This document shows positions 29,038 through 33,671 of a stretch of 64,000 bases of DNA, in pieces. Under the pieces are notes generated by a model. It was not told the DNA's origin, made no database searches, and saw only the letters and a list, made by a program, of their open reading frames with translations. The position numbers and the translations under genes are program-made. Location: NCBI GenBank assembly GCA_904378045.1, contig CAJFHC010000001.1, forward strand, positions 105,906-169,905, written 5' to 3'. Origin of the DNA: Candidatus Metalachnospira gallinarum. Lineage in GTDB: Bacteria; Bacillota; Clostridia; Lachnospirales; Anaerotignaceae. Each line of letters starts with the position of its first letter. The first letter of the stretch is position 1.

Positions 29038-29172
29038 TGGTAAAAAGGCGGGAAAAAGGAAAAACTTTTTCCTGCCTCTGCCAAAACGGATATAAAATAT
29101 GCTCAAATAATGTCGTAATACGCATATCGATTTATATACAATGCTTTTTATTTCCAATATGTAAAACCTTTG

Positions 29173-29202
29173 TTGACAAAGACAACGGCATAGTGTTAAA
29201 AT
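29173..29202 (+). promoter_or_regulatory. Sigma-A promoter of carAB
   Basis: A perfect TTGACA (29173-29178) and TAAAAT (29197-29202) separated by 18 bases. Transcription from it would produce a leader of nearly 190 bases before carA. Confidence 0.7.
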
Positions 29203-29236
29203 GTCAAACGGTATAAAAATTCGGGAGGTCAAAGCA

Positions 29237-29341
29237 ATGGGAAATACAGGCTTTACAAATGTATATCACTCAGCGGAGAACACGGAATTTTTATTTCATT
29301 TTTACTGTTTTTTAAATACAAATCATTTTTCTTACCGGTGA
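29237..29341 (+). CDS. Putative leader peptide of carAB, 34 residues
   Basis: A small reading frame begins at ATG 29237, eight bases after a strong GGGAGG, and ends at a TGA (29339-29341) inside the left arm of the carA terminator. Its second half is encoded by T-rich tracts (FLFHFYCF stretch). The peptide itself is unlikely to have a function. The arrangement mirrors the E. coli pyrBI leader, where translation coupled to slow transcription through U-rich RNA when UTP is low prevents the terminator from forming. Confidence 0.5.
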   Translation: MGNTGFTNVYHSAENTEFLFHFYCFLNTNHFSYR

Positions 29342-29377
29342 AACGGAATTTTTATTTCCGTTGATACCGGCTTTTTT
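29335..29377 (+). terminator. Attenuator terminator upstream of carA
   Basis: CCGGT (29335-29339) pairs with ACCGG (29366-29370) and AACGGAA (29342-29348) with TTCCGTT (29356-29362), over a 7-base loop, followed by TTTTTT (29372-29377). A 16-base direct copy of the left-arm region (29282-29297 equals 29343-29358) could pair alternatively with the right arm. The carA ATG is 22 bases further on. Confidence 0.75.
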
Positions 29378-29398
29378 ATTATAGAAAGGATTAGGCTT

Positions 29399-30496
29399 AT
29401 GAAGAACGATTTTAACAGAAAAATAGTCCTTGAAGACGGAAGCGAATACTTCGGCTACGGTTTCGGCTACCATACGGACAGGGTATGTGAGATTGTTTTC
29501 AACACATCCATGGTAGGTTATCAGGAGATCGTTTCCGACCCGTCTTATACCTATCAGATGGTCGTTATGACCTATCCTCTTATCGGAAATTACGGTATCA
29601 CCGATGAGGACTTCGAGACAAGGGTTCCTACCATCGGAGGTCTTGTAGTAAGGGAATACAACGACCTGCCAAGCAATTTCCGCTATACGAAAACTCTCTC
29701 GGAAATACTTGAGGAGAACAAAATTCCCGGAATCTGGGGAGTAGATACAAGAAAGATCACAAGAAGCATAAGAGATTTGGGAAGCAGAAAGGTATTCATA
29801 ACGGATATTACGACTCCCAAGGAAGAAGCCATGAAAATCATTGCCGAAACCGAGGTTCCCAAAGACGCGGTTTCAAAGGTAAGCTGCAAAAAAAGATGGT
29901 ATTCCAGAACGTCCAACCATAAGTACAATGTCGTTGCCGTTGACTGCGGCATAAAGCTCAACATAGTAAGAAGCCTTAACGCGAGGGGCTGCAACGTAAT
30001 AGTAGTGCCTTGGGACTCCACGGCCGAGGAAATAGAGATGCACGAGCCCGACGGAATATTCCTGTCCAACGGCCCCGGAAACCCTGAGGACGTTATGCAC
30101 GTCGTTGAGCTTGTAAAAACGCTCAGAGGCAAATACCCCATCTTTGGCATATGTCTTGGACACCAGCTTATAAGCCTTGCCTACGGCGCGAAAACATATA
30201 AGCTCAAATTCGGCCACAGAGGCGGAAACCATCCCGTAAAAAATCTTGAGACCGGCAAAATAGAGATAACGAGCCAGAACCACAGCTACGCCGTAGATAT
30301 GGACTCGCTTAAAAATACGGATCTTACGGCTACGCATATAAATCTGCTTGACAATACGATAGAAGGCGTGGAGTGCAAAGCGGACAGGATTTTCAGCGTT
30401 CAGTACCATCCCGAGAGCGCTCCCGGACCTCAGGACAGCGCCTATCTGTTTGACAAATTTATAAATATTATGAAGGAGAGTAAGGAAAATGCCTAA
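29399..30496 (+). CDS. carA: Carbamoyl-phosphate synthase small subunit
   Basis: CarA is the glutaminase subunit, giving ammonia to CarB for carbamoyl phosphate (arginine and pyrimidines). Of the 365 residues, the C-terminal class I glutamine amidotransferase has the triad C252 (FGICLGHQ), H337 and E339 (QYHPES). The N-terminal domain contains the family segment [12 protein letters not shown]. The gene overlaps carB by eight bases. Control by the upstream attenuator is likely; ArgR control is possible since argR is in the same region. Confidence 0.97.
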
Positions 30497-33400
30497 AAGA
30501 ACGGATATTAAAAAAATACTTGTTATAGGATCCGGCCCCATCGTTATAGGTCAGGCCGCGGAATTTGACTATGCCGGAACACAGGCCTGCCTTGCTCTTA
30601 AAGAAGAAGGATATGAGGTCATCCTTGCCAACTCAAACCCGGCAACAATAATGACGGACACGACCATCGCCGACAAGGTGTATATGGAGCCGCTTACGCC
30701 GGAATATCTCGCTAAAATAATAAGAATGGAACGCCCCGACGCCCTTGTGCCCGGAATCGGAGGACAGACCGGCCTTAACCTTGCTATGGAGCTTTCAAAA
30801 AACGGCGTGCTTGACGAATGCGGCGTTGAGATGCTCGGAACGAGCAGGGAAAGTATAGAGAGAGCCGAGGATAGGGAGCTTTTCAAGGAGCTTTGCATAT
30901 CTCTCGGAGAGCCCGTTCTTCAATCGGAAATAGCCACATCCATAGAGCATGGTCTTGAGGTTGCCGAAAAGATCGGATATCCCGTCGTTCTCCGTCCCGC
31001 CTTTACCCTCGGAGGAACAGGCGGCGGATTCGCCGACAATGAGGAAGAATTCAGGGAAATTATGAAAAACGCTCTTCAGCTTTCTCCCGTCCATCAGGTA
31101 CTCGTTGAAAAGAGCATAAAAGGATATAAGGAAATAGAGTACGAAGTAATGCGTGACGCAAATGACACGGCCATTACTATATGTAATATGGAAAACGTGG
31201 ATCCCGTCGGAATACATACGGGAGACTCCATAGTTGTCGCTCCAAGCCAGACGCTTACAAATAAGGAATACCACCTTCTCAGGGACAGTGCCCTCAGAAT
31301 AATAAGGGAACTTAAGATCGAAGGCGGATGCAACGTACAGTTTGCCCTTGACCCCGAGTCGTTCAGATACTACCTTATCGAGGTAAATCCCAGGGTGTCC
31401 CGTTCGTCGGCTCTTGCGTCCAAGGCCAGCGGATACCCCATAGCCAGGGTTTCGGCAAAGATAGCCGTTGGAATGCACCTCGACGAGATACAGATAGCGA
31501 ATACTCCCGCCAGCTTTGAGCCTGCTCTGGATTATGTCGTAACAAAAATGCCAAGATTCCCCTTCGATAAGTTTGCCACGGCTTCAAACAAGCTCAGCAC
31601 ACAGATGAAGGCCACCGGAGAAGTAATGAGCATAGGCAGAACCATAGAGGAGAGCCTTCTGAAAGCTGTCCGCTCTCTTGAAACCGGCGTATGCCACCTC
31701 TATATGCCTAAGTTTGACAATATGTCCAAGGAAGAACTGCTGAAATATATCGCCATCGGAACGGATGACAGGATTTTCGCCATCGCTAAACTTATGAGAG
31801 ACGGCATAGACCCCGGAATGATCTGCAACGCTACCCAGATAGATATGCTTTTCCTTGAGAAGATAAAAAATATCGTTGATTTTGAGAGCGTTGTCGCGGA
31901 AAACAGAGGAGACGCAGATGTGCTTTTCAAAGCAAAGAAAATGGGCTTCTCCGATAAATATATTGGAATCCTCTGGGGAATGAGCGATACGGAAATTTAT
32001 AATATCAGAAAAGAAAACGGAATTTTCCCCGTTTACAAAATGATAGACACATGCGCCTCGGAGTTTGACAGCTACATCCCTTATTTCTACTCCACCTATG
32101 AGGAGGAAAATGAGTCCGTTGTAAGCGAGAAGAAAAAAATCGTCGTACTCGGATCGGGCCCCATAAGGATTGGACAGGGCGTTGAGTTTGACTATTCAAC
32201 GGTACACGCCGTAAAGACAATAAAGGCAAACGGATATGAAGCAATAATAATAAACAACAATCCTGAGACCGTGTCAACGGACTATACGACCAGCGACAAA
32301 CTCTATTTTGAGCCGCTTACTCCGGAGGACGTTATGAACGTCATCGAGCTTGAGAAGCCCATCGGAGTTATCGCCAGCCTCGGCGGACAGACGGCCATCA
32401 ACCTTGCCGAGCCGCTGAGAGAAAGAGGAGTAAAAATAATCGGAACGGACAGCGAGGCCATAGAAAGAGCCGAAAACAGGGACGCCTTTGAAAAGGTAAT
32501 GACCGAGCTCAACATACCTCAGCCCAAGGGAGTTGCCGTAACAAGCCTTGAGGCCGGATTTAAGGCAGCCGAGGAGATCGGCTATCCTGTCCTTGTTCGC
32601 CCCAGCTATGTGCTTGGAGGCCGTGCTATGCAGATCGTTGCCAAGGAAGAGGATTTGAGGGAATATCTTAAGACTGCCGTTGAGGTAAACGAGGATCAGC
32701 CCGTGCTTGTTGACAAATATATTGTCGGCAAGGAGCTTGAGGTCGACGCTATATGCGACGGAACGGACGTATTCATCCCCGGAATAATGGAGCTCGTTGA
32801 GAGAACCGGTATCCATTCCGGAGACAGTATAAGCGTGTATCCTACATTCAGCGTTTCTCAGAAGGCTAAGGATAAAATAATCGAGTATACAAAGAAGCTC
32901 GGTCTTGGCATAGGTATCGTAGGACTTTACAATATCCAGTTCATTGTTGACAAAAACGAGGACGTATATGTTATCGAGGTAAATCCCCGCTCATCAAGAA
33001 CGGTTCCCTTCCTTTCAAAGGCTACCGGATATTTCCTTGCTGATATAGCTACGCTGGTTATCCTTGGAGTAAGCCTTAAGGAACAGGGATATACGCAGCT
33101 TTACGCCGATGAGAAGGATACATGGTATGTAAAGGCTCCCGCGTTCTCATTCTCAAAGATCAGCGGACTTGACGCCTACCTTTCTCCTGAGATGAAGTCA
33201 ACCGGAGAGGCCATAGGATATGACAGCAAGCTTACGAGGGCTATGTACAAGGCGCTTCAGGCTTCTGGAATCGCCCTTACCGACCACGGAACCGTGCTTG
33301 TAACCGTTGCTGATGAGGACAAGGCCGAGACATTCCCCCTTGTAAAGAGATTTTATAAGCTGGGATTCAATATCGTCGCTACGGAAATGACCGCGGACTA

Positions 33401-33671
33401 CCTTAAGGAGAGAGGAATCAAGACAAGGGTCTACGGAAAGATATGCGAGGGCAATGACGATATACTCCGTGATATAAGAAGCGGAAAAATAAATTATGTA
33501 ATAAACACAAGAGCGATAATGTCCGGAAAACATTATGAAGACGGATATATAATAAGAAGGTGCGCGGTTGAGAACAACGCCACCATGTTCACCTCCCTTG
33601 ATACCGTAAGGATGCTCCTTGAGGTGCTTGAGGAAATGACCATTGGAATTTCAACAATAGACGGAAAGTAA
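30489..33671 (+). CDS. carB: Carbamoyl-phosphate synthase large subunit
   Basis: At 1060 residues this is the full two-fold repeated synthetase. Each half has an ATP-grasp domain (first: [21 protein letters not shown]-type N-terminus at residues ~10-30; second: [18 protein letters not shown] near ~555), the first making carboxyphosphate and carbamate and the second phosphorylating carbamate. The C-terminal ~140 residues form the MGS-like allosteric domain that typically senses UMP or ornithine. It ends with a strong terminator. Confidence 0.97.

Follow-up and report, generated by a model that had tools for sequence, protein, structure and literature searches.

PyrR is the usual regulator of pyr genes in Gram-positive bacteria, and carAB provides the first step in the synthesis of pyrimidines and arginine. 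In Escherichia coli, it was demonstrated that the ribosome represses a terminator located near a stop codon, most steeply at pyrBI (PMC4824070). Firmicutes are regarded as uncoupled, terminators close to stop codons being considered the mark of this condition (PMC10953045), and since RNA polymerase is considered to run ahead of the ribosomes in these bacteria, a control that needs the ribosome to keep pace is unexpected there. Leader-ORF attenuators in which a translated short frame governs a terminator have been described in Firmicutes for vmlR (PMC9226507) and for hisS (PMC2965389), while an extended hairpin upstream of carA in the betaproteobacterium Polynucleobacter, the carA motif, was proposed as a possible riboswitch (PMC8632094). 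No description of a pyrBI-type attenuator in Clostridia was found in the open-access literature, and a carAB leader of this type is apparently undescribed so far in Firmicutes.

The DNA analyzed here, hereafter the window, is a stretch of 64,000 nucleotides from Candidatus Metalachnospira gallinarum, a member of the Anaerotignaceae, in which a candidate attenuator precedes carAB (Table 1). A first-pass annotation had listed a promoter, a ribosome site, a T-rich frame of 34 codons, a TGA in the left arm of a terminator and a T-run before carA, all of which were confirmed from the sequence. The product of the frame is MGNTGFTNVYHSAENTEFLFHFYCFLNTNHFSYR, and T makes up 56% of the 50 nt preceding the hairpin versus 27% of carA itself, whose start codon lies 21 nt downstream of the terminator T-run. 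The hairpin has a folding energy of -18 kcal/mol, which was reached by none of 200 shuffled sequences (z -4.1), and only 43 of 20,000 dinucleotide shuffles (~0.2%) yielded a frame that had 25 or more codons and a Shine-Dalgarno sequence and that overlapped a terminator. All six Phe codons of the frame are TTT and both Leu codons are TTA, the latter representing 3.3% of the Leu codons in the window's genes, so that the Phe/Leu choice of the leader has a p of ~4e-5 by codon usage. As a separate observation, base pairing is possible between the terminator T-run and the carA ribosome site (CUUUUUUAU and AUAGAAAGG; window 29371-29389), and is predicted in folds of both the window leader and the genus alignment.

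Table 1. Features of the carAB leader region, numbered from the first letter of the window.
Feature	Position	Strand	Basis
TTTATATACAATGCTTTTTAT, upstream of the carA promoter	29131..29151	+	Identical in three genus members (alignment)
Promoter, sigma-A type, TTGACA-18-TAAAAT	29173..29202	+	11/12 matches; kept in relatives
Shine-Dalgarno of the leader frame, GGGAGG	29223..29228	+	Read from sequence
Leader reading frame: ATG at 29237, 34 codons, TGA 29339-29341	29237..29341	+	Kept in relatives with 3-nt indels
U-rich tract in the latter half of the leader frame, where RNA polymerase is proposed to pause	29286..29333	+	Conserved in relatives
Intrinsic terminator (putative attenuator): hairpin 29335-29370 and T6 29372-29377	29335..29377	+	Fold energy; compensatory pairs
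carA, carbamoyl phosphate synthase small subunit, putatively controlled gene	29399..30496	+	ORF; homologues found
Presumed carB, carbamoyl phosphate synthase large subunit (identity from sequence knowledge); overlaps carA	30489..33671	+	ORF

The carA leader shares with E. coli pyrBI and its leader frame pyrL the elements of this type of attenuation, namely a short frame with a Shine-Dalgarno sequence that reaches and overlaps an intrinsic terminator placed before the gene, a U-rich tract within the frame shortly before the hairpin (GTTTTTCTTCCC in E. coli, ATTTTTCTTTCCC in the genus leaders), the lack of a competing antiterminator and an early pyrimidine gene as the target. The likeness of the two tracts is probably due to convergence. 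The systems differ in that carAB rather than pyrBI is controlled here, that the host is a Firmicute, that the UTP response is putative, and that the carA leader frame ends at or inside the left arm, whereas pyrL (44 codons) runs through the hairpin and ends 3 nt before pyrB. In the vmlR and hisS leaders a short frame also governs a terminator, but vmlR uses an antiterminator and antibiotic-stalled ribosomes, while the carA leader has no antiterminator, and hisS has a run of His codons, while the carA leader has no regulatory codon run. The Polynucleobacter motif is likewise a structured leader upstream of carA, although it was not proposed as a leader frame with a terminator.

We consider it rather probable that the carAB leader is a translation-coupled transcription attenuator working like that of pyrBI, and UTP sensing by it appears plausible. 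Transcription would start shortly upstream of the short frame, which ribosomes would translate, and RNA polymerase, most likely at low UTP, would slow down while crossing the U-rich latter half of the frame. The first ribosome would then catch up, and on arriving at the stop codon, in or next to the left arm, it would prevent the hairpin from folding, so that carAB would be transcribed. When UTP is plentiful, the polymerase would outpace the ribosome, the terminator would fold and carAB would be off. What the sequences show is the anatomy of the leader, its conservation and recurrence, and the absence of PyrR, whereas we infer that the frame is translated, that polymerase pauses, that UTP is the cue and in which sense the control runs.

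The genus comparison comprised all sequenced members, the window genome and three others, including the cultured Anaerotignum sp. MSJ-24, with one contig starting inside the leader. The leader was present in all four genomes, and the alignment revealed that the frame, the U-rich tract and the location of the stop in the left arm were all kept; the overlap of frame and hairpin, which the first-pass annotation had proposed to look for in related carAB leaders, was conserved in all three relatives. Frame length differs within the genus by 3-nt steps only, the frame remaining open, and the block AAATyATTTTTCTT(y)CCGG is retained across the leaders. The upper stem of the terminator has been rewritten, its pairing being retained through double (compensatory) changes. 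A 1-nt difference at the end of the frame shifts the stop of the window species to a TGA that still lies within the left arm. A 16-base copy of the left-arm region, earlier suggested as an alternative pairing partner, is indeed present in the window (29282-29297 and 29343-29358), but such a pairing with the right arm was rejected, being neither conserved nor needed: the copy is specific to the window species, upstream copies in the relatives do not exceed 6-7 nt, and their upstream-to-right-arm pairing involves other sequences or stays at the level of shuffled ones. In other genera of the family, carA was found in operons or behind other leaders, and a frame of the genus type was not found.

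Among 80 carA relatives drawn from one-genome-per-species data, 53 AT-rich Clostridia presented a second leader form before carA, which amounts to about 55 in all, from another order. This form has a Shine-Dalgarno sequence and a frame of typically 27 codons (consensus MKNYLKKxNxIxxSAVFLIVxLFSFxF), whose stop codon typically lies 0-2 nt before the left arm of ATAAGGA...TCCTTATTTTTTTT. When the order containing the leader-bearing genome G250 was sampled, the leader was found at all five carA genes of this type, most genomes of the order having no carA. Two further lineages, represented by L118 (G086) and L160 (G249; 42-codon frame), show the frame-over-terminator layout before carA with unrelated sequence and appear to be further independent cases. 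The locus L081 was left out of the count because its genome has PyrR and its frame, which also overlaps a terminator, is not U-rich. These leader counts overstate independence, since the sequences are related. The earlier description of this control as rare in Firmicutes was too narrow, because the layout precedes carA in dozens of Clostridia. A covariance model of the leader, run on eight genomes, gave one credible site per genome, at carA, and found no other genes under the element; an extra weak match, in L157, was an unrelated prepilin-like frame. The pyrBI-like architecture first noticed in the window is supported, being conserved in the genus and recurring in unrelated Clostridia without PyrR, and its occurrence in over 50 further Clostridia devoid of PyrR suggests a race between ribosome and RNA polymerase at carAB, as at E. 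coli pyrBI. In three other carA loci (L162, L164 and L178), sites such as TGCATTTTTATTCA, resembling arginine-repressor boxes, were observed between promoter and carA.

The coupling that such a race demands deserves consideration. In these genomes, ordinary genes too have terminators 0-10 nt away from their stop codons, as in uncoupled Firmicutes, and coupling would therefore have to be brought about locally by a pause in the tract; a programmed pause near the promoter could overcome the uncoupling. The U-richness could also reflect something besides UTP, such as NusG pausing at TTNTTT or a U-binding protein. In Bacillus subtilis, TTNTTT is a site of NusG-dependent polymerase pausing, and the vmlR leader makes use of a pause of this kind (PMC9226507). 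This favors a rival model, in which a translation-coupled attenuator would owe its pause to NusG and not to UTP and would report on growth state or translation capacity rather than on pyrimidines. Of 52 leaders, 50 have TT[ACG]TTT in the last 50 nt upstream of the hairpin, in many cases at a distance of 18-23 nt from it, but this frequency is somewhat above the 63-78% expected from shuffled tracts, and two leaders lack the motif. Moreover, a translation sensor would have no obvious tie to carAB alone, while the leader is located at carA only, and control by NusG pausing is considered unlikely.

The pattern of change within the leaders bears on what they would sense. In the second form, the ATG and the tract are separated by a multiple of 3 nt in all 43 scored leaders, and the frame is open in 29 of 29, versus 67% of sequences after column resampling, while along the frame U climbs from 24 to 43 to 65% and A drops from 59 to 36 to 15%. 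Changes are distributed about equally over codon positions (211/289/301 in the second form; 9/10/11 in another comparison), the terminator is the only well-supported consensus fold among the conserved leader pairings, and a conserved antiterminator, sought in leader alignments and folds, was not found. Because substitutions are even over codon positions and no antiterminator is conserved, selection acts on the open frame, the stop position and the U-rich tract, and not on the peptide. An arrest peptide was rejected, there being no excess of third-position changes. Neither a trp-type switch nor an arrest peptide nor arginine codons agree with this pattern, which fits pyrBI-type coupling.

It is quite improbable that the leader responds to charged tRNAs (Phe, Leu, Ile, Val or Arg) through ribosome-mediated attenuation at the codons of its frame. 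Phe, Leu, Ile and Val codons are abundant in it and the last codon of the window frame is Arg CGG, carAB also feeding arginine synthesis, but there is neither a conserved antiterminator nor a conserved run of end-product codons. Arginine sensing through the terminal CGG was discarded, as this codon is confined to the window species and a 1-nt difference gives other codons in all three relatives. Besides the evenness of changes over codon positions, the variable positions of codon 26 in the second form are the first two, the third being fixed. If a ribosome stalled within the tract, the hairpin would still be able to fold, which is the wrong direction for end-product control.

Comparison with the PyrR-dependent pyr attenuation of Bacillus, which also places a terminator in the leader of Firmicute pyrimidine genes, shows a genome without a PyrR gene and a leader in which no PyrR loop was detected with the consensus used. 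In the window genome (a 2.05-Mb assembly, 95.5% complete), PyrR was not found among the seven phosphoribosyltransferases, Hpt, Apt, Prs, PyrE, PurF, Upp and Xpt. Among 50 genomes with a carA locus, PyrR was present in seven, none of which had the U-rich leader frame, and the leader-frame genomes searched had no PyrR. The region 29150-29400 contained no PyrR loop at up to 3 mismatches from the consensus used, which also gave none in the L099 leader, from a PyrR-bearing genome. Rfam returned no match for the window leader, at gathering score or among weak hits; this absence is weak evidence, because Rfam also found nothing in the L099 leader. That leader (L099:3915-3975) and those of L100, L104 and L119, all from genomes with PyrR, are carA leaders with a strong terminator starting around GGGCAATGGCGTTC.

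The tract could alternatively be bound by a protein or small molecule, as by a PyrR-like factor or in a riboswitch, with the frame being incidental. Conservation of the tract at the nucleotide level regardless of codon position agrees with this, but the lack of a PyrR gene, of a PyrR loop under the consensus used and of an Rfam match, together with the terminator being the only conserved structure and with a frame that stays open through 3-nt indels at a fixed stop position, makes such binding a distant prospect. A constitutive partial terminator with a meaningless short frame is very improbable, since, common as terminators near stop codons are in these genomes, a frame of this kind has a chance of ~0.2% per leader and yet is kept in dozens of genomes.

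No leader of the carA type was found before the separate pyr operon of the genus, which counts against the pyrBI-type reading. We regard the question as evenly balanced whether UTP-sensing, ribosome-coupled attenuators arose several times in Clostridia and replaced PyrR at carAB, a programmed polymerase pause giving local coupling in a phylum seen as uncoupled. If true, gut Clostridia would contain a compact natural reporter that responds to UTP and to local coupling, pyrimidine control in PyrR-less genomes would be explained, and the pyrBI logic would have evolved convergently.

Two regions near these promoters merit mention. The promoter of the genus pyrC-K-D-F-E-B-I operon (L135:6470-6560, minus strand; L141-L144) has an initially transcribed region in common with carA, AAAATRTCnnnCGGTRTA, and in G001 (L142) a CTCCG/CGGAG pairing, not conserved, could mask the pyrC Shine-Dalgarno sequence as in E. 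coli pyrC. Upstream of carA, TTTATATACAATGCTTTTTAT was rejected as a regulon site, since its matches elsewhere in the genus genomes equaled those of the reversed-pattern control, with no enrichment. This element lies ~21 nt upstream of the carA -35 hexamer, amid otherwise diverged DNA, and is possibly an operator or UP element.
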